The translations under genes and the position numbers were made by a program. Source: Pseudonocardia xinjiangensis (GTDB taxonomy: Bacteria > Actinomycetota > Actinomycetes > Mycobacteriales > Pseudonocardiaceae). From it: 64,000 bases of DNA. Shown piece after piece: positions 1-40,943 of this stretch (the first letter of the stretch is position 1; the number at the start of each line of letters is the position of its first letter). The notes under the pieces are model-generated. The model was given only the letters and a program-made list of their open reading frames with translations. It searched no databases and was not told where the DNA came from. The DNA lies in contig NZ_JAAXKY010000011.1 of the NCBI RefSeq assembly GCF_012911925.1, forward strand, positions 1 through 64,000, written 5' to 3'.

Positions 1-112
1 CCTCCATCAGTGCACCGGTGTTCGGGCTCAGCGGAGAGCTCGTCGCCGCCCTGGGCATCGGTGCCCCGCTCCAGCGGCTGGGCCCGGCCGAGGCCGGCCG
101 GTGGGCTCCGAC
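1..112. repeat. Inverted copy of part of the IclR gene at the window edge
   Basis: Bases 1-112 are an exact reverse complement of bases 1211-1322, which lie inside the IclR-family gene; window base i pairs with 1323-i. Identity stops abruptly at base 112/113, and from 113 onward the sequence is the normal 3' part of the MFS transporter gene. Because the match begins at base 1, the copy probably continues outside the window. A short near-palindrome (GGCAGGCCGCCTGCC) sits at the junction. This is either a genuine inverted duplication or a fold-back chimera at a contig end. An exact 112-base match inside coding sequence with no mobile element nearby favours the chimera. Confidence 0.95.
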
Positions 113-7744: not shown

Positions 7745-8617
7745 TCAGGGCGTGGCGAAGGCCGGGTCGCGCGGAGTGGCCGGCGCGCTCTCGGGCAGCA
7801 GGATCCGGTCGGTGCGCGTGTAGATGTTCATCGAGCCGTCGCGGATGAAGCCGGCCATGGTGAGGCCGCACTCCTCGGCGAGCTCGACCGCGAGCGACGA
7901 CGGCGCCGAGACCGCAGCGATCACCGGCACGCCGGCCATCACGGCCTTCTGGGCCAGCTCGAACGACGTGCGCCCGGACACCGTGAGGACACAGCCGCTC
8001 GCCGGGATCCGGCCCTGCAGCAACGCCCACCCCAGGACCTTGTCGACGGCGTTGTGCCGCCCGACGTCCTCGCGCACGACCAGCAGGTCGCCGTCGGCGG
8101 TGAACAGCCCGGCCGCGTGCAGCCCGCCGGTGCGGTCGAAGACCTGCTGGCGCCGCCGCAGGGCGTCGGGCAGGCCGGCGAGCACCTCCGCGGACACCTG
8201 CGTGGGGTCGGCGGCGGGGGAGTGCCGCGACTTCAGGCGCACGGCGTCGAGCGACGCCTTCCCGCACACCCCGCACGACGAGGTGGTGTAGAAGTTGCGC
8301 TCCACACCGGGGTCCGGGGCGGGCACACCCGGCGCGAGCCCGACGTCGAGAACGTTGTAGGTGTTGCGGCCGTCGGCGTCGACGGAGTCGCAGTAGCGCG
8401 CGGTGCTGATGTCCGCGGCACTGCCGATCACGCCCTCCGTGAGCAGGAAGCCGTGGGCGAGCTCGACGTCGTGGCCCGGCGTGCGCATCGTGACGGCCAG
8501 CGGCTTGCCCGCGACCCGCAGCTCCAGCGGCTCCTCGACGGCGATGGAGTCGGGCCGCCGCGTGACACCGTTCGGGGTGACGCGCAGTACCGCGCGCCGC
8601 GCGATCAGACGCCCCAT
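7745..8617 (-). CDS. fdhD: Formate dehydrogenase accessory sulfurtransferase FdhD
   Basis: FdhD relays sulfur from a cysteine desulfurase to the molybdenum (bis-MGD) cofactor of formate dehydrogenase, a step needed for activity. This 290-residue copy keeps the sulfur-carrying cysteine pair in [12 protein letters not shown], the EEPLELRV N-terminal segment, and the [10 protein letters not shown] motif. Start ATG 8617 gives the expected N-terminus; longer frames are arginine-rich read-through. It overlaps the end of the moeA-like gene by 13 bases and is the last gene of the fds operon, so its partner is FdsA encoded 1.4 kb upstream. Confidence 0.95.
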
Positions 8618-9798
8618 GGTCGTGCTCCCTGGTCGAAGGGCAGGAGACGCGCGGCGATCGCCGCGGCCGGGCCGGGGTCGACCACGGCGAGCGCGTCGGC
8701 GACCGCGGCCCCCCGGAGCATCGCCGGCCCGTTGTGGCCCACCGGCTCCGCGCCGTGGGGGCCGACGCGCACCGGGACCAGCCGGGTGCACACGGCGTGG
8801 CGGGGCAGCCCGCCCGGAACCGGGGCCGCCACCAGGACGGGCAGCGGCTCACCGCGCAGCCCGCTGATGACGGGGACCGCGAGGGTCAGGAACGCGGCGA
8901 GCGCGGCGAACGGGTTGCCGGGCAACCCCACCACCAGCCGCCCGTCGCGCAGCCGGGCCAGGGCCTGCGGGTGACCGGGACGACAGGTCACGCCGTCGAC
9001 GAGGAGGTCCGCCTCGAGCGCGGCGAGCGCCGGACGCAGGTGGTCGGCGGGACCGGAGGCCGAGGAGCCGGAGACGAGCACCAGGTCGGCGTCGGCGTCG
9101 GCGATGGCGTCGAGGAGCAGGGCGCGGGAGTCGGGCAACGCGGCGGTGGCCACCGCCCGGGCACCGGCGCCGGCCAGCAGGCCGGGCAGCATGGGACCGA
9201 TGGCGTCGCGCACCCGGCCCGGCCCCGAGGGCCCCTCGGAGACCAGCTCGTCGCCGGTGACCAGCGCGGCCACCCGCGGGTGCGGATGCACCGGCAGCCG
9301 GTCCAGGCCCAGCGTGGCGACGAGCCCGAGCACGGCGGGGTGCACCACGATGCCTGCCGGCAGCAGCTCATCGCCCGCCGAACACTCCTCGCCGGCGCGG
9401 CGCACGTGCCTGCCCGGCGTGACCGACCCGGCGACCCGGCGACCGTCCACGACAGCGTCCTCGTCGGGCAGCACGGCCGTGGTGCCTGCAGGCACGGCCG
9501 CCCCGGTGACCACGGCGAACGCTTCGCCGGCACGCAGCTGAGCGGGCGCGGAGGTGGCGACACCGACCCGGCCGACGAGCGTCCACGGCGCCGCGCCGCA
9601 GACCGCGTAGCCGTCCATCGCCGAGCGGTCCACCGGCGGCACGGCGGACGGCGCCACCACGGGCGCGGCCAGCACCGCCCCCTCCGCGTCGGCGATCGGG
9701 ACCCACCGCACGGGCAGCGGCCGCGCGGCCGCGTGGGCCCGCTCCCGCGCGCCGTCCCAGGACAGCGACGTCACGGGCGGTGCGAAGGCGGTGCTCAT
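8605..9798 (-). CDS. moeA: Molybdopterin molybdenumtransferase (MoeA-like)
   Basis: MoeA inserts molybdate into adenylylated molybdopterin. The 397-residue protein has the expected domains. Early motifs are [14 protein letters not shown] (residues ~53-66) and the [13 protein letters not shown] segment. The MoCF-fold region has VTGDELV and then [17 protein letters not shown]. The substrate loop [16 protein letters not shown] is followed by a C-terminal beta-barrel domain. The central motif is usually SGGVS/GxxD, so [11 protein letters not shown] is a departure that may weaken or retune activity. It starts by TGATG overlap with fdsD and overlaps fdhD at its 3' end, so it appears dedicated to maturing this formate dehydrogenase. 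Confidence 0.88.
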
Positions 9799-34059: not shown

Positions 34060-34350
34060 ATGACCGTGTCATTCGTCCACGGGCACGCGCGGGCCACCGG
34101 TTGGGTGATGGCCCATGTCCGGCGCCCCACCACCGCCGAGGACGGTCAGCTTCCGCTGCTCGCCGCGGTGCCGCTGCCGCGCCCTGCGGACGCGGAGGAA
34201 CCCGCGGAGCCCGACCCGCAGGCGCCCGGCGCGGCCCGGAAGTCCGTTGTCGCACGAGCTGAGCTGCCGGCGCCGGGGGAACGGCATGCTCGCCCGGTAG
34301 GGGGCGGGCGAGCATGCCGTAGCTCGTCAGCTCGCGCCGGCCACCGCTGA
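34060..34350 (+). CDS. Small hypothetical protein
   Basis: A frame with a strong ribosome site (AGGGAGG at 34051-34057) opens at ATG 34060 or, better spaced, GTG 34066. The first ~40 residues (VHGHARATGWVMAHVRRP, QLPLLAAVPLPRP) look protein-like, and then it becomes Pro/Glu/Ala-rich and disordered. The 3' part runs through the hairpin at 34281-34320, which is unusual, so translation may stop being meaningful before the annotated end. No family recognised. Confidence 0.4.
   Translation: MTVSFVHGHARATGWVMAHVRRPTTAEDGQLPLLAAVPLPRPADAEEPAEPDPQAPGAARKSVVARAELPAPGERHARPVGGGRACRSSSARAGHR
34281..34320. terminator. 16-bp hairpin between convergent genes
   Basis: ACGGCATGCTCGCCCG (34281-34296) and CGGGCGAGCATGCCGT (34305-34320) pair perfectly around an 8-base loop, 7 bases from the amidase stop. 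It should end the amidase transcript and any rightward transcript. Confidence 0.85.
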
Positions 34351-35874
34351 GGCCTGCGGCGCGGGGAATCCCCCGACCGCCTGCTCGAAGGTGTGGGCCA
34401 CGCGCAGCACGGTGGCGTCGTCGAACCGCTTCCCGATGATCATCATCCCGGTCGGGAGGCCGTTGGCCTGCCCGGCGGGCACGCTGCACGCCGGGTGCCC
34501 CGAGACGTCCAGCGGCGCGCAGTTCGTCACCATCTCCAGCGCCCGCACGATCTGCTCCTCGCGCGGGGCGTCCTCGGCCGGGATGAGCGAGGCCTGGATC
34601 GGCGTGGTGGGCATGACCAGCACGTCGTAGCGGGCCAGCGCCTCGTCGTAGGCCGCTCGCAGCCGGGGGGCCAGGTTGCGCGCCATGGCGTAGTGCTTGC
34701 CCCGGTAGCGGTCGAGCGCGTAGCGGCCGGAGAGCAGCACGAGCTTGACGGTCTCGGAGAACTGGCTGCCGTCCGCACGCCACTTGTTGCCGTAGAACTC
34801 GATGAGCTCGGGGTCGTAGCGGCCCTGCCAGTTCAGGCCGTAGCCGTTGCCGTCCACCATCTGTGCCGTGGCGCCCTCGATGGAGATGACGTCCCAGATC
34901 TTCAGGCCGTGCAGGTGCCAGGGGATCGAGACGTCCTCGACGGTGAGGCCGGCCTCGCGCAGCGTCTCGGCCGCAGCGCGCACCGCGTCGTCCACATCGG
35001 GTTCGGAGCCTGGGTGGCCGAAGCCCTCGCCGACCACACCGACCCGCAACCCCTCAGCGGACCGGGAAAGTGCCGCGACGTAGTCCTGGACGACGAGGTC
35101 ACCCGGCTGGCGCGGGTCGTGCCCGTCGGGTCCGGCGATGACGCCGAGCAGCAGCGCGGCGTCGGCCACCGTGCGGGTCATGGGGCCGACGTGGTCGATC
35201 GTCTGCTCGATCGGGAACGCGCCGGTGTAGGGCACCAGACCGTGGGTGGGCTTGTGCCCGACAATCCCGCTGAAGGAGGCGGGCATGCGGATGGAGCCGC
35301 CCTGGTCGCCCCCCGTGGCGAAGTCGACCACACCGGACGCGACGAGTGCGGCACTTCCGCTGGACGACCCGCCCGACGACCGGCTGGTGTCCCACGGGTT
35401 CTGCACCGGGCCGGTGCGCGAGGTGTGTGAGCCACCGGAGAAGCAGAGGTCCTCGCAGACGGCCTTGCCGGCGATCGTGGCGCCGGCGGCGAGCATCCGG
35501 GACACGATCGTGGCGTCCCGGGACGGGACGAAGCCCTCCAGGGTGGTGGAGCCGTTCATCATCGGCACGCCGGCCACTGCGGTGTTGTCCTTGACCGCCA
35601 CGGTGCGGCCGGCGAGCGGGCCCTCGCTGCTCTCGGTGATGTTGCAGGTGACGTACCAGGCGTTCAGCGGGTTGTCCGCGGCCTCGGGCCGCGCCCACGC
35701 CCGGTCGGGCGCGACGGGCTCCACCTGCGCGTGGAGCGCCTCGACGGCGTCCCACGACGCGAGCACCCCGTGCACCAGCGGGGCGAACGACTCGACGTCG
35801 GCGTCGGTCAGGCCCAGGCCGTAGCCGACGGCCACCTCGGCGATCTCCGACTGGTCAGGGGGCTCAAGGGGCAT
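34327..35874 (-). CDS. Amidase signature family hydrolase
   Basis: This 515-residue amidase hydrolyses a carboxamide to acid and ammonia. The Ser-cisSer-Lys triad is visible: Lys in TVAVKDNTAVAGVPM, the cis-Ser in SSGGSSSGSAALVASG, and the nucleophile Ser in GGDQGGSIRMPASF. The start is ATG 35874 with GAGGAG 7 bases upstream. It lies 105 bases downstream of the SRPBCC-amide-binding fusion and ArsR genes on the same strand, suggesting that those genes sense its substrate. Aliphatic or aryl amide specificity cannot be decided; the GGDQGG motif is typical of short-chain amidases and urea-amidolyase-like enzymes. Confidence 0.92.
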   Translation of the reverse strand: MPLEPPDQSEIAEVAVGYGLGLTDADVESFAPLVHGVLASWDAVEALHAQVEPVAPDRAWARPEAADNPLNAWYVTCNITESSEGPLAGRTVAVKDNTAVAGVPMMNGSTTLEGFVPSRDATIVSRMLAAGATIAGKAVCEDLCFSGGSHTSRTGPVQNPWDTSRSSGGSSSGSAALVASGVVDFATGGDQGGSIRMPASFSGIVGHKPTHGLVPYTGAFPIEQTIDHVGPMTRTVADAALLLGVIAGPDGHDPRQPGDLVVQDYVAALSRSAEGLRVGVVGEGFGHPGSEPDVDDAVRAAAETLREAGLTVEDVSIPWHLHGLKIWDVISIEGATAQMVDGNGYGLNWQGRYDPELIEFYGNKWRADGSQFSETVKLVLLSGRYALDRYRGKHYAMARNLAPRLRAAYDEALARYDVLVMPTTPIQASLIPAEDAPREEQIVRALEMVTNCAPLDVSGHPACSVPAGQANGLPTGMMIIGKRFDDATVLRVAHTFEQAVGGFPAPQASAVAGAS

Positions 35875-35979
35875 CGTGTGTCTCCTCGCGGTCGGTGGCC
35901 CACGCACCGTAACGAGCGGGAGATCGACATGTCTACGACAGTTGGCACGTTGATCAGGCGGGGGTCGGGCAGCCGACCG

Positions 35980-37404
35980 TCACCGCGGGAGGTCCACGAG
36001 GAAGCCACCGGTCGTGGCCTCGGCCAGGAACATGCGCTGCGGCTCCTGGCCCACGGCGGCCTCGCCGCGCGGGAAGTCCTCCCGGCTGTAGCGCAGCTCG
36101 CGCGCCGTGGCGCCGAGGTGGTCGGCGCCCGCCCGCCGGACGGCCGCCGCGTAGCGGTGCATCGCCTCGTACACCGACTCGGAGATGCTCGAGACCGGCG
36201 GCGCGAACTGCCCGAACGTGGTGCGGTAGCGCTGCAGGAACGCCTCGTTGACGGGGCCGGGGAGCTGTTCGAAGTAGCCGGAGACGCCCCACATCCCGGC
36301 CGCGGCGTCGTCGCCGATGCGCTCGCGGGTGGGCTCGTCGAGGGCGAGGGCGAGCGACCGGCACCGGTCGCGGACACCCATCGCGTGGCACTGCCGCTCG
36401 AAGTGCACGAGGTCGGCGCCCACGAAGGAGGACAGCACGACGTCCGCCCCCGACTGCAGGACGCTCTCGATCAGCGGCGCGAAGTCGCGGGTGCCCAGCG
36501 GCGCGAAGTTCTCCCCCACCACGGTGCCGCCGTCGTCGGCCAGCACCCGCCGCGCGGTCGTGTGCACCGCGCGCGGCCACACGTAGTCGTTGCCGGCGAG
36601 GAACCAGCGCCGCCCGCCCGCCATCTGCATCATCGGGGCCGCCGCGGCACGCAGCTGGTGCTCGGGGCGTTCCCCGAGCTGGACGCGCAGGCCGCCGTCG
36701 AGGCCACCCTCGTTCATGACCGGCTGCACCATCAGCACGCCGGAGTCGCGCAGCTCGTGCGCGGCGCGGGAGAAGGTGGCCGACGTCGTGCTCGCCATGA
36801 TCACCCGGCAGCCCGCGTGCACCAGCCGCCACGCCTCGATGGTGCCGAGCCGGGGGTCGGTGGCGTCGTCCCCGACCATGAGCCGCATCGGTCTGCCGTC
36901 GATGCCGCCGTCGGCGTTGATCTCCTCGACGGCCATGGCCGCGAGGTTCTCGGTGGCCGAGGCGAACACGCTGGCGGAGCCGGACTTGCTCGTCAGGAGG
37001 CCCACCGGATGGGTGCCCGCCACGGGCCCGTCGGGCACGGGGAAGCCGCGGCGGCGCATCAGCCAGTGCAGACCGGCGTCGTCGAGGTCGGCGATCAGGC
37101 GCACCCTGGTGCCGCCGCCGTTCGGGTCGATGTGCACGCGCAGGCGGCCCCGCCACGGCTGGTCGTGCCGGATCTCGATGCGCGACGGAGAGCGGACGGC
37201 GGAGATCCGGCCGAGGATCTCCACGGGCCCGGAGGCCGCGCCGAACATCGGCGCGTTCAACGTGACGACCGCGCCCACCCCGACCCGGTCGCACACGGCA
37301 TCGAAGACCCATCCCGCACCCGTGCCCGCGCCGAACAGGGCGAACACCGCCTCGGGCGGTGCGTCGACGTGCTGTTCGGCCGTGAGGGCGAGCCGGCTCA
37401 TCAC
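35980..37404 (-). CDS. SRPBCC domain fused to an amide-binding (AmiC/UrtA-like) sensor
   Basis: This 474-residue protein has two parts. Residues ~1-125 form an SRPBCC/START-like ligand pocket (AEQHVDAPPEAVFALFG, HDQPWRGRLRVHIDP, TRVRLIADLDD). Residues ~126-474 form a type I periplasmic-binding fold of the amide/urea/branched-chain class (VGLLTSKSGSASVFA, INADGGIDGRPMRLMVGDDATD, ESVYEAMHRYAAA). There is no signal peptide, lipobox or membrane helix, so it stays in the cytosol, like Pseudomonas AmiC. It overlaps the ArsR gene by ATGA and precedes the amidase. I infer a sensor that tells ArsR about an amide. Confidence 0.82.
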   Translation of the reverse strand: MMSRLALTAEQHVDAPPEAVFALFGAGTGAGWVFDAVCDRVGVGAVVTLNAPMFGAASGPVEILGRISAVRSPSRIEIRHDQPWRGRLRVHIDPNGGGTRVRLIADLDDAGLHWLMRRRGFPVPDGPVAGTHPVGLLTSKSGSASVFASATENLAAMAVEEINADGGIDGRPMRLMVGDDATDPRLGTIEAWRLVHAGCRVIMASTTSATFSRAAHELRDSGVLMVQPVMNEGGLDGGLRVQLGERPEHQLRAAAAPMMQMAGGRRWFLAGNDYVWPRAVHTTARRVLADDGGTVVGENFAPLGTRDFAPLIESVLQSGADVVLSSFVGADLVHFERQCHAMGVRDRCRSLALALDEPTRERIGDDAAAGMWGVSGYFEQLPGPVNEAFLQRYRTTFGQFAPPVSSISESVYEAMHRYAAAVRRAGADHLGATARELRYSREDFPRGEAAVGQEPQRMFLAEATTGGFLVDLPR

Positions 37405-37766
37405 ATGGCTCTGCGAACGGGCCCGTCAGCGGCGGTACCGGTGCCGGCGTCGTTCGCCGCGCCCTGTTCCGCGGCGGCCTTGGTGGCGTCGAGCGACCCC
37501 TGGAACAGCTCCTGCAGCAGCTGGATCACTTCCTGCGCGGGGCCGGTGGCGTCCACGGAGTAGTAGCGGAAGCGGCCGGTGCGGCGCTCGGTGATGAGGC
37601 CTGCGGTGCGCAGCACGCGGAGGTGGCTGGACACGGCGGTGCGTCCCACCCGGTTGATGTGCTCGGACAGCTCGCCCGCGCTGCACTCGTCGCGCTGGGC
37701 CAAGAGCGTCAGGATCTCGCGGCGAACCGGATCCGCGAGGGCGTCGAACGCCGCGTCAGCACCCAT
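37401..37766 (-). CDS. ArsR family transcriptional regulator
   Basis: This 121-residue winged-helix regulator has FDALADPVRREILTLLAQRD for the first helices, HINRVGRTAVSSHLRVLRTAGLI for the recognition helix, and RTGRFRYYSVD for the wing. The CxCxD-type metal site of arsenic sensors is absent; the only cysteine in the N-terminal region is in DECSAGEL. It is therefore the metal-independent type commonly paired with SRPBCC proteins. Start ATG 37766; longer frames are unsupported. Its stop overlaps the SRPBCC-amide-sensor gene (ATGA), so the two are made together. Confidence 0.88.
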   Translation of the reverse strand: MGADAAFDALADPVRREILTLLAQRDECSAGELSEHINRVGRTAVSSHLRVLRTAGLITERRTGRFRYYSVDATGPAQEVIQLLQELFQGSLDATKAAAEQGAANDAGTGTAADGPVRRAM

Positions 37767-37921
37767 CTCGGTCGTCCCCCCTGGCCACTGCCGCACCCCC
37801 TGAGCGGTCCCCTGATCCGGTGCCGAGGAGCGAGCGTCCGTCGGCCCCGCGGGATGAGAGTAGCCCGATCGGGTCCCGGTGGCCTCCTCCGGCGGCGGCT
37901 GAGCCGGTCGTCGGTGGTCTC

Positions 37922-39250
37922 TCAGCGTTCGACGAGCTGGAACCGGCCGCCCTGGTCGTCGGTGCACTCGGCCGCCCTCCCGAACGGGCGCCGCTCGGGT
38001 CCGGCGCCGGTGCCGCCAGCGGCCCGGACGGCCTGCACCGCGGCGGCGAGATCCGGGACGGCGAACGACGGCACCACCACGGCGGGTTCGGACCGCCCGC
38101 CCCAGATCGACGTGCGGGGCCGCGGCTCACCCGCCGCCGTGCGGACGTTCCACCCGTTGGCGACGCGGGCGGGCACGAACCCCCAGCCGAGGACCGTGCC
38201 GTAGAAGGCCCTGGCCCGGCCGGCGTCGGGCACCCGGAGCACGAGATGGGCGATCGCGTCGTCCGACCCGGGCACGGGTCCGGGCGGCCCGCTCCGGAGC
38301 GCGAAGGGCACCCCCAGGTCGTCCACGCAGTCCGTGACGCGGCCGGGGGGCTGGTCGGCCGGTTCGCCCGCCGTGCCGCCCGCCGCGCGGACCACCGCGA
38401 CGGCGGCGTCCACGTCGGGCACGGCGAAGCAGAGCATGAGCGTGCTCCGGTCGTGGCCGCCGGACAGCCCCAGCCGGGCGCCCGCGCTCGTCACCCGGCG
38501 GTGCTGCGGCCCGGAGCCCGGCTCCACCGTCCAGCCGAGTACGGCGGCGTAGAAGCGTTCGGCGCGCTCGACGTCGGCCGTCCACAGCGAGGCGTGGACG
38601 ATGTCGCCGGTGCGCGGTCTCGCCGGTTCCCGCGACACCATCCACCGGTGCCCGAACGGGTCGAGCACGACGCCGCCGCGGCCGTAGGGCGAGTCGGTGA
38701 CAGGACGCTCCAGCACGCCACCGGCCGCGAGCGCACGATCGACCACCGCGTCGGGGTCGGTGACCTCGAGGCGCAGCGACTGGGTGGAACCACCGCGGGT
38801 CACCGGGGCCAGCAGATCCAGCTCCGGGAACTCGTCGGCCATCATCAGCACGCTGTCGCCGAGCACGACCTCGACGTGGCCGATGCGGCCGTCCGGCATC
38901 AGGACCGGCTCGCCGCGGCGCGCCGCCCCGAACGCGCCGATGTAGAACTCCACGGCGGCGCGCGCATCCGACACCGCGAGGTAGGGGGTGACGGTGTGCA
39001 GCGGCAGGACCGCGGCGGCCGTCGCGGTGCCGGTCGTGGCGTCGGTCGTGGCGTCGCCGACGGTGGTGTCGGTGGTGGAGGCAGGCTCGGGGGTGGTCGG
39101 CTCGGCGATGGTCGCCCCGGTGGCGGTCACGGTGTCGTCCGGCCGGTCCAGCACCGCGCGCTCTACGCGGACGCGCAGGCCGTCGGCGAACTCCGGGTCG
39201 GGGGTGGCCGGGGCGTCGGGGATGCGGAGGGCGTCGAAGGCGTCGGTCAT
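37922..39250 (-). CDS. Triple VOC (glyoxalase-fold) domain protein
   Basis: This 442-residue protein has a low-complexity Thr/Ala-rich linker (~residues 40-80) and three vicinal-oxygen-chelate modules: ~85-205 (VTPYLAVSDARAAVEFYIGAFG), ~215-325 (HASLWTADVERAERFYAAVLGW) and ~335-442 (HLVLRVPDAGRARAFYGTVLGW). It is co-translated with an ECF sigma factor (ATGA overlap), an arrangement known for ECF groups fused or linked to small-molecule-binding domains. A sensor or anti-sigma-like role is as likely as catalysis. Confidence 0.85.
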   Translation of the reverse strand: MTDAFDALRIPDAPATPDPEFADGLRVRVERAVLDRPDDTVTATGATIAEPTTPEPASTTDTTVGDATTDATTGTATAAAVLPLHTVTPYLAVSDARAAVEFYIGAFGAARRGEPVLMPDGRIGHVEVVLGDSVLMMADEFPELDLLAPVTRGGSTQSLRLEVTDPDAVVDRALAAGGVLERPVTDSPYGRGGVVLDPFGHRWMVSREPARPRTGDIVHASLWTADVERAERFYAAVLGWTVEPGSGPQHRRVTSAGARLGLSGGHDRSTLMLCFAVPDVDAAVAVVRAAGGTAGEPADQPPGRVTDCVDDLGVPFALRSGPPGPVPGSDDAIAHLVLRVPDAGRARAFYGTVLGWGFVPARVANGWNVRTAAGEPRPRTSIWGGRSEPAVVVPSFAVPDLAAAVQAVRAAGGTGAGPERRPFGRAAECTDDQGGRFQLVER

Positions 39251-39881: not shown

Positions 39882-40943
39882 TCAGACGGACGTGAGGAAC
39901 TCGGCGAACACCGCCAGCCACTTCTCCCGGGAGTCGAGGTGGGGGCCGTGCCCCGCGCCGTCGAAGATCTCGGTCCGCACCACCCCGCCTGCGTCCGCGT
40001 AGCGCTCCAGCACCTCCTGGATCTGGGTCACCATCGGCTGCGGGGGGAACACGTCCGGCCCGGGCCATCCCGGGACGGCCCCCGACGCGCCGAGGGTGCC
40101 CAGCTCCAGCGGCGATCCGTCGGCCACCACGAGGTCGGCGCTGCCGTGCGTCCACAGGACGGGCGGTTTGGGGTCGAGGTCGACGAGGCCCGTCCAGTCG
40201 CAGTACTTCGGCGACAGGGCGTTGATGAGACCGGACGTGCCCGGCGCCATGCCCGGCCAGTTCGGCGAGGCGGTGGAGTCGCCCGGGTAGTTGGCGTCCC
40301 CGGTGACGGTCTTCAGGATCTCCGCGACGAGCAGGTCCTCGCGTTCCGGCAGCTCCCGGTGGGTCGGGGCGAAGTAGAAGGTGTTCAGCACGTTGCGGAT
40401 GGAGAAGGGGCTCTCGGCCGAGTCGTCGCCCGCGGCGATGCGCCGCACGATCTCCCGCTCGACGGTGCCGCCGCCGGACCCGGCGAAGTCGGGGAAGCAC
40501 GGTGTGCCGTCGGCGCGGACACCCCCGTAGCCGTAGGGCGGCACGGGGTCGAGGAACGTCAGCGACGCGACCGGCCGGTCCATCGCGTACCGGGCGATCG
40601 CCGCGCCCGCCGTCGACCAGCCCACGAGATGCGGGGGCCGGTCGATCCGCAGGGCCCGGGTGAGCGCGGCGAGGTCGTCCGCCCAGTCGCCGAGGCCACG
40701 GGTGGCGTCCACCGGAGCGGGTTCGGAGTCGCCGAAGCCGCGCATGTCCGGGGCGATGACGCGGTACTGCGGCAGCTCCGGCATCAGGTGCTCGAAGAAA
40801 CGGCCGGTGGAGAGGTTGCCGTGCACCATGAGGATCGGCACGGCATCGGCCGGGCCCGACTCCAGGTAGTGCATCCGGATGCGGTCGGTGTCGACGCTCG
40901 CGGAACGGACGCCGGGGAGCAGCGGCACCGGGGACATGGTCAT
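39882..40943 (-). CDS. Alpha/beta hydrolase
   Basis: This 353-residue alpha/beta-hydrolase-fold enzyme has the oxyanion region LMVHGNLSTGRFF, the GFGDSEP turn, nucleophile Ser in HLVGWSTAGAAIAR, and His in DGAGHGPHLDS. The nucleophile elbow reads GWSTAG, so it lacks the second glycine of GxSxG, but this variant occurs in the family. Epoxide hydrolase, haloperoxidase and C-C hydrolase relatives are all possible. Divergent from the dehydrogenase gene at 41.1 kb. Confidence 0.85.
   Translation of the reverse strand: MTMSPVPLLPGVRSASVDTDRIRMHYLESGPADAVPILMVHGNLSTGRFFEHLMPELPQYRVIAPDMRGFGDSEPAPVDATRGLGDWADDLAALTRALRIDRPPHLVGWSTAGAAIARYAMDRPVASLTFLDPVPPYGYGGVRADGTPCFPDFAGSGGGTVEREIVRRIAAGDDSAESPFSIRNVLNTFYFAPTHRELPEREDLLVAEILKTVTGDANYPGDSTASPNWPGMAPGTSGLINALSPKYCDWTGLVDLDPKPPVLWTHGSADLVVADGSPLELGTLGASGAVPGWPGPDVFPPQPMVTQIQEVLERYADAGGVVRTEIFDGAGHGPHLDSREKWLAVFAEFLTSV

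Follow-up and report, generated by a model that had tools for sequence, protein, structure and literature searches.

The L-NHase cluster of Rhodococcus rhodochrous J1 was, in a study by Komeda et al. from 1996, reportedly found to encode an ArsR-like negative regulator (NhlD) and an AmiC-like protein (NhlC). In the AmiC/AmiR system of Pseudomonas aeruginosa, AmiR is an ANTAR antiterminator. R. rhodochrous J1 was the first strain in which the induction of NHase by amides and urea was elucidated (PMC11573777), and the cobalt NHases of Rhodococcus are described as serving the production of acrylamide and nicotinamide at scale (PMC6941271). Here, we compare these systems with a locus of the soil bacterium Pseudonocardia xinjiangensis, in which an ArsR-family gene precedes a gene joining an SRPBCC domain to an AmiC/UrtA-type binding domain.

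The stretch of DNA analyzed (the window) comprises 64,000 nucleotides, corresponding to positions 1 to 64,000 of contig NZ_JAAXKY010000011.1. Three genes on its minus strand make up the locus: an ArsR-family regulator of 121 aa (37401..37766), the proposed repressor; the fusion protein of 473 aa counted from its ATG (35980..37401; open reading frames, Pfam, and structure model), the proposed amide sensor and anti-repressor; and an amidase-signature amidase of 515 aa (34327..35874). The preliminary description had given the same open reading frames, with the amidase on the same strand as the pair, and had claimed translational coupling of ArsR and fusion; indeed, the start of the fusion gene as read from the window sequence overlaps the arsR stop codon. 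A GTG one codon upstream of the ATG is an alternative start, which would extend the fusion gene to 35980-37404. The amidase likely starts at the ATG at 35874, leaving a gap of 105 bases after the fusion gene. ArsR matched HTH_20 (5e-12), HTH_5 (4.8e-11), and NF033788 (76.9 bits, cut-off 55), while the amidase matched PF01425 (2.1e-100) and NF005565/PRK07235 (780.8 bits, cut-off 545). In a domain scan, five neighbors in the window were assigned as an acetyltransferase, a methyltransferase, a glyoxalase-like protein, a sigma factor, and a 2-hydroxyacid dehydrogenase, with no transporter genes among them. Within the 18 kb searched near the fusion gene, no NHase gene was detected and the amidase stands alone.

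Two further observations concern the surroundings of the pair. The genome carries an NHase-alpha-like gene far from the fusion locus (C235:10892-11452; 233.1 bits, cut-off 249.85), and no fusion gene was found in the 16 kb around it. An alpha/beta hydrolase gene (39882-40943) and a glyoxalase-like gene (37922-39250), both upstream in the window, are members of clusters found repeatedly around the pair in other Pseudonocardia loci (14 and 13 members, respectively).

Residues 1-118 of the fusion (37048..37401, minus strand) form an SRPBCC/AHSA1-like domain. The Pfam family Polyketide_cyc2 scored 20.0 bits with the whole protein and 23.2 bits with the domain alone, below the cut-off of 27.4, and such a weak, sub-threshold match was seen in 9 of 20 members of the fusion family. 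When the 118 residues were modeled alone with AlphaFold, a helix-grip fold was obtained at a mean pLDDT of 85.2 (full fusion model: 83.0). The structure matches listed by Foldseek and VIA were mostly of the AHSA1/SRPBCC type, with a best Foldseek E of 9.4e-6 and VIA Z values up to 8.7, at 3.2 Å over 101 residues. The last helix of the domain model is short, with only about 10 residues. Invariant residues cluster in the motifs GWxFDxxCDR and PWxG and in the short C-terminal helix WLxRRxG, a pattern that would fit a contact surface for ArsR as well as it would fit a pocket. By eye, the N-terminus MSRLALTAEQHV contains no hydrophobic export signal, and together with the fold matches this agrees with the earlier picture of a cytosolic SRPBCC plus AmiC/UrtA-type protein devoid of a signal peptide.

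Distance correlations across 63 loci did not single out the half that co-evolves with ArsR, as the partial r values were equal (0.376 and 0.386). Looking for a second SRPBCC copy as the source of the domain, we obtained matches in 9 of 21 genomes, at one place each (up to 150 candidates per genome). Searches of wider samples with the SRPBCC domain matched 2 of 396 genomes of the phylum (including the genome of the window) and 10 of 397 genomes of the order, based on the best 11 candidates per genome, with misses possible. Two apparent SRPBCC-only forms were rejected. In Streptomyces sp. STR69 (L026, 6001-6600), the reading frame enters the amidase region out of phase and the binding domain is missing; in L150 (G021:C8, around 7800-8540), an ArsR gene is accompanied by a shortened SRPBCC part without a binding domain. 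Both look like deletions and not like working variants. L150, a natural sensor deletion, retains an operator-like site before its amidase gene.

The C-terminal part of the fusion (about residues 130-463; 36013..37014, minus strand) matched Peripla_BP_6 (1.2e-66) as well as Peripla_BP_5. In the full model, its best solved matches were UrtA (8tg1, 8hic) and AmiC (1qnl, 1pea), with 8tg1 and AmiC matching by both sequence and fold. The curated UrtA model was missed by a wide margin (138 bits, cut-off 492.75). An invariant stretch of the family, TTSAT (residues 205-209), aligned with YMSHT of AmiC in a profile alignment, and its serine presumably corresponds to the amide-contacting Ser85 of AmiC. 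The pocket otherwise differs, with Tyr-Pro-Asn/Thr-Pro-Tyr in AmiC and Thr/Pro-Leu/Val-Met-Asn in the fusion. Judged from this alignment, the ligand is probably an amide, though not necessarily acetamide, since the rest of the pocket departs from that of AmiC. The possibility of an exported transport protein was rejected in view of the missing export signal (as judged by eye) and the SRPBCC domain standing in its place.

Near full-length matches to the fusion occurred in 40 of the 62 genomes of the genus (with a partial match in two more), and the arrangement is therefore not a product of chance. At E <= 1e-60, the fusion was detected in 68 of 346 genomes and 8 of 46 genera of the family; named genomes of Pseudonocardia, Amycolatopsis, and Streptomyces are among the carriers. 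Fusions encoded on Rhodococcus plasmids are about 54% identical to the window query, with 98% of it covered (5 records), and identities of 44-45% were found for pTC2 of Paenarthrobacter aurescens and one further Rhodococcus plasmid.

To describe the gene neighborhood, loci were selected by their match to the fusion and near-identical copies were merged; as the merging keys differed slightly, the number of unique loci ranges from 80 to 85. Not included in the counts were loci L132-L149 and the short loci of 4.4 kb (L027-L055 and L093-L098); where an omitted locus overlaps a longer stretch, that stretch stands in for it, which is not the case for the short L041 (G056). Of the 85 unique loci, 81 carry ArsR directly upstream of the fusion and one carries it downstream; three have no adjacent ArsR, and in one of these (L076) ArsR sits by the amidase instead. 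An amidase gene is found nearby in 65 loci, NHase beta in 53, NHase alpha in 52, amidase and/or NHase in 71, and a Ni/Co transporter in 13, and both amidase and NHase are missing from 11 of the 81 loci whose flanks were adequate. The two halves of the fusion occur together in all 85 loci, partly by construction given the selection by fusion match. NHase subunits and the accessory protein scored above their NCBIfam cut-offs and are of the cobalt type. The window and some of its relatives keep the amidase only. The search for the same domain pair in other genomes, as the preliminary description had suggested, hence finds ArsR recurring beside 82 of 85 fusions; because the fusion recurs with ArsR and with amidase or NHase genes, the objection that it might not be conserved elsewhere falls away.

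Several individual loci deserve mention. The NHase beta subunit of L077 (G061:C15) is identical over 233 residues to the crystallized chain 3vyh_B, which we take to be the Pseudonocardia thermophila NHase. In L089 (9001-10428, Rhodococcus pyridinivorans p_4-4_B), the ArsR-fusion pair adjoins iron ABC transporter genes and not amidase or NHase genes, and an operator-like site lies upstream of a second ArsR gene. At a distance of about 2-4 kb upstream from the fusion, L014, L062, and L063 carry divergently oriented genes for a second binding protein lacking the SRPBCC part, a Ni/Co transporter, and another ArsR.

The winged helix of the regulator was confirmed by the Pfam matches and by the match to the NCBIfam subfamily NF033788. 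Among 77 distinct ArsR sequences, 18 of the 121 positions are invariant. As the preliminary description had read from the window protein, a metal site is missing: no conserved Cys/His set appeared in the columns of these 77 relatives. A cysteine at position 28 is present in 35 of the sequences, and the sole common histidine (position 48, 68 of 77) falls inside the presumed recognition helix. A metal-sensing ArsR was rejected on account of the missing ligands.

In the regions upstream of arsR, we recognized by eye an inverted repeat, TGTCA-N8-TGACA. Requiring at least 9 of its 10 positions, 31 sites were counted upstream of ArsR in 80 sequences; 100 dinucleotide-preserving shuffles yielded a mean of 0.38 and a maximum of 3. 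After the fusion gene and before the amidase gene, the same consensus was matched in 16 of 83 sequences at 9/10 and in 35 of 83 at 8/10. Because the consensus was chosen from the upstream set on which it was later counted, the counts at the amidase provide a more independent test; the loci are, moreover, related by descent. For 82 unique loci, site rates were 1.99/kb before arsR, 1.35/kb after the fusion gene, and 0.0105/kb elsewhere (13 sites in 1.24 Mb), i.e. a 190-fold and a 130-fold enrichment, respectively. Of the 13 sites elsewhere, eight immediately precede a displaced amidase or nthB gene (L088 +1840, L090 -7986, L071 -5296, L113, L077, and L076 4495) or another ArsR gene (L076 4963 and L089), and five have no such neighbor.

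The candidate operator overlaps the promoter of the amidase gene. The pattern TTGACN-16..19-TANNNT was present in 57 of 68 unique amidase upstream regions (300 rounds of mononucleotide shuffling: mean 0.12, maximum 2). In 54 of these 57 promoters, the 5-mer at the place of the left half agrees with TGTCA at 3 or more of 5 positions, whereas a random 5-mer does so in about 10% of cases. The -35 box of the amidase promoter thus coincides with the right half of the operator, a placement suited to repression. At arsR, the operator is found by eye just downstream of the -10 box. In the window, the site before the amidase, TGCCAACTGTCGTAGACA (35930..35947, minus strand), matches only 8 of the 10 consensus positions and has a weak -35; stronger sites are found in relatives, for example at 8613-8630 and 11222-11239 of L087. 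The right half of the window site is formed by the -35-like TAGACA (35930-35935), which is 18 bases away from a -10-like TACGGT (35906..35911, minus strand), so that the proposed amidase promoter reads TAGACA-18-TACGGT. Upstream of the window arsR, a -10-like TACTCT (37857..37862, minus strand) was noted by eye, and the consensus scan of this region gave no site with at least 8 of 10 positions; self-regulation may therefore be lost or altered in the window. For the same reason, the interval 37767-37921, formerly proposed as the place to examine ArsR binding, is here a weaker choice than the site before the amidase.

An additional indication comes from Rhodococcus. On plasmid pNit of R. rhodochrous ATCC BAA-870, the genes are arranged in the order ArsR, fusion, nthB, nthA, accessory gene, Ni/Co transporter, and amidase, and the same order was found in strains BX2, N1, PD04, and P23 (in N1 with an insertion element before the amidase). 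Across these five plasmids, we compared ArsR, the fusion, the 120 bases preceding arsR, and the gap ahead of nthB. BAA-870 and BX2 encode identical fusion proteins, and where their operator regions differ, the remaining strains agree with BAA-870. The only difference private to BAA-870 is the substitution R67C in ArsR (L154 7647-7985). Arginine 67 is invariant in all 77 distinct ArsR sequences and located in the presumed wing; with 18 of 121 positions invariant, a random change in ArsR would hit an invariant position about 1 in 7 times. The genome paper of BAA-870 reports that its NHase is expressed constitutively and suggests that a move onto a plasmid is responsible (PMC6941271); all four comparison copies, however, are plasmid-borne as well. 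As a correlation, R67C may be a candidate cause of the constitutive phenotype, and a simpler one than plasmid location. Together with the operator common to both promoters, this substitution in a reportedly constitutive strain lends support to the earlier proposal that ArsR is the DNA-binding partner of the fusion.

Considering these results, we propose, with a probability of roughly 0.7, that the pair is an amide switch of the NhlD/NhlC type, in which ArsR represses and the amide-bound fusion relieves repression. An ArsR dimer would bind TGTCA-N8-TGACA and repress the amidase promoter at the -35 box, acting on amidase and NHase genes in relatives but on the amidase alone in the window; repression by ArsR is the step that R67C supports. 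In most relatives, ArsR would also repress its own promoter. The co-translated fusion would stay in the cytosol, where its AmiC/UrtA-type cleft would close on an amide; the closed form would release ArsR from the DNA, whereupon the amidase would remove the inducer. The SRPBCC domain may be the part touching ArsR. More specifically, it could be a docking module that passes on the amide closure of the AmiC-type domain and strips ArsR off the operator overlapping the -35 box, a suggestion we make tentatively and regard as somewhat doubtful.

Other readings of the same parts were weighed. ArsR and the fusion might jointly act as an amide-dependent activator instead of a repressor and an anti-repressor. 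Co-transcription of the sensor with ArsR would suit such an activator, and a 2020 paper describes transcription of the J1 H-type enzyme as undergoing 'activation' by urea through a mechanism that it calls still unclear (PMC7105576). However, operator and -35 box overlap in 57 of 68 amidase promoters, and at arsR the operator lies just past the -10 box, both being usual positions of repressors, and the strain carrying R67C is reported to be on, not off; joint activation thus appears unlikely. We consider it quite improbable that the fusion is a two-signal sensor, with the binding domain reading the amide and the SRPBCC pocket reading the product acid or another hydrophobic ligand. SRPBCC folds often hold hydrophobic ligands, which would agree with such a role, as would the joint retention of both halves (itself partly a matter of locus selection), but nothing pointing to a second ligand was found, the three invariant motifs fit a contact surface equally, and the closing helix of the model is very short for its fold.

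The remaining reading, to which we give very little credence, takes the fusion for a transport protein, either left over or moonlighting, with ArsR answering to something else, e.g. a metal. It could draw on the few loci without amidase or NHase, including the Rhodococcus plasmid copy beside iron ABC transporter genes, and on CblA, described in PMC7689651 as the ArsR-type cobalt sensor of a Rhodococcus NHase. Against it stand the 77 ArsR sequences without conserved metal ligands, the N-terminus without an export signal visible by eye, and the adjacent ArsR gene found at 82 of 85 fusion loci.

If the SRPBCC domain indeed docks onto ArsR in the way suggested above, the pair would represent a new sensor design, in which a protein ligand controls ArsR by way of an SRPBCC adaptor. 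Lone SRPBCC genes occur beside arsR genes, and the same design would give a hint at their role. For the L-type NHase, the analysis offers a concrete candidate operator, a two-domain sensor, and a single residue possibly explaining the constitutive phenotype of an industrial strain; the mechanism is therefore directly testable. A small amide-inducible promoter for actinobacteria may also result.

The preliminary description, knowing of no system with this composition, had regarded the switch as new. This has to be revised, as the Rhodococcus pair sits in a J1-type L-NHase cluster, the regulators of which, NhlC and NhlD, have reportedly been published. The SRPBCC half is, to our knowledge, absent from the published description of NhlC and NhlD. 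Because the BAA-870 NHase is reported to be identical in sequence to the J1 L-NHase (PMC6983157), the Rhodococcus fusion is very probably NhlC. The ArsR-fusion pair is thus probably a known kind of system, whose parts are newly mapped this closely. In a search of the literature, which left most subscription journals outside, no description of the domains of the pair, of the operator, or of the R67C explanation was found; within the literature searched, the SRPBCC half, the candidate operator, and the R67C explanation are new.

Compared with known proteins and systems, the locus combines familiar parts in its own way. The best-matching solved structures (8tg1, 8hic) are UrtA proteins of ABC transporters; unlike these, the fusion has no visible export signal, carries the SRPBCC domain in its place, and has no transporter genes among its scanned neighbors. 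Its N-terminal 118 residues share the fold of AHSA1/SRPBCC proteins but are fused to a binding-protein fold, end in a very short C-terminal helix, and score below the Pfam family cut-offs. With the ArsR/SmtB metalloregulators, the regulator shares the winged helix, whereas the conserved Cys/His/Asp metal site is absent in the window family. In P. aeruginosa, an amidase operon likewise relies on an AmiC-type fold in the cytosol to sense amides (1pea, 1qnl); there, AmiC is without an SRPBCC domain, while the partner of the fusion is ArsR. AmiR-type antitermination was rejected for the window, as none of the 7 ANTAR matches of the genome lies on its contig. As with NhlD and NhlC of J1, an ArsR-type gene is followed by an AmiC-like gene; the J1 pair stands beside cobalt NHase and amidase genes, whereas the window copy has no adjoining NHase, keeps its amidase, and encodes a fusion about 54% identical to that of Rhodococcus.
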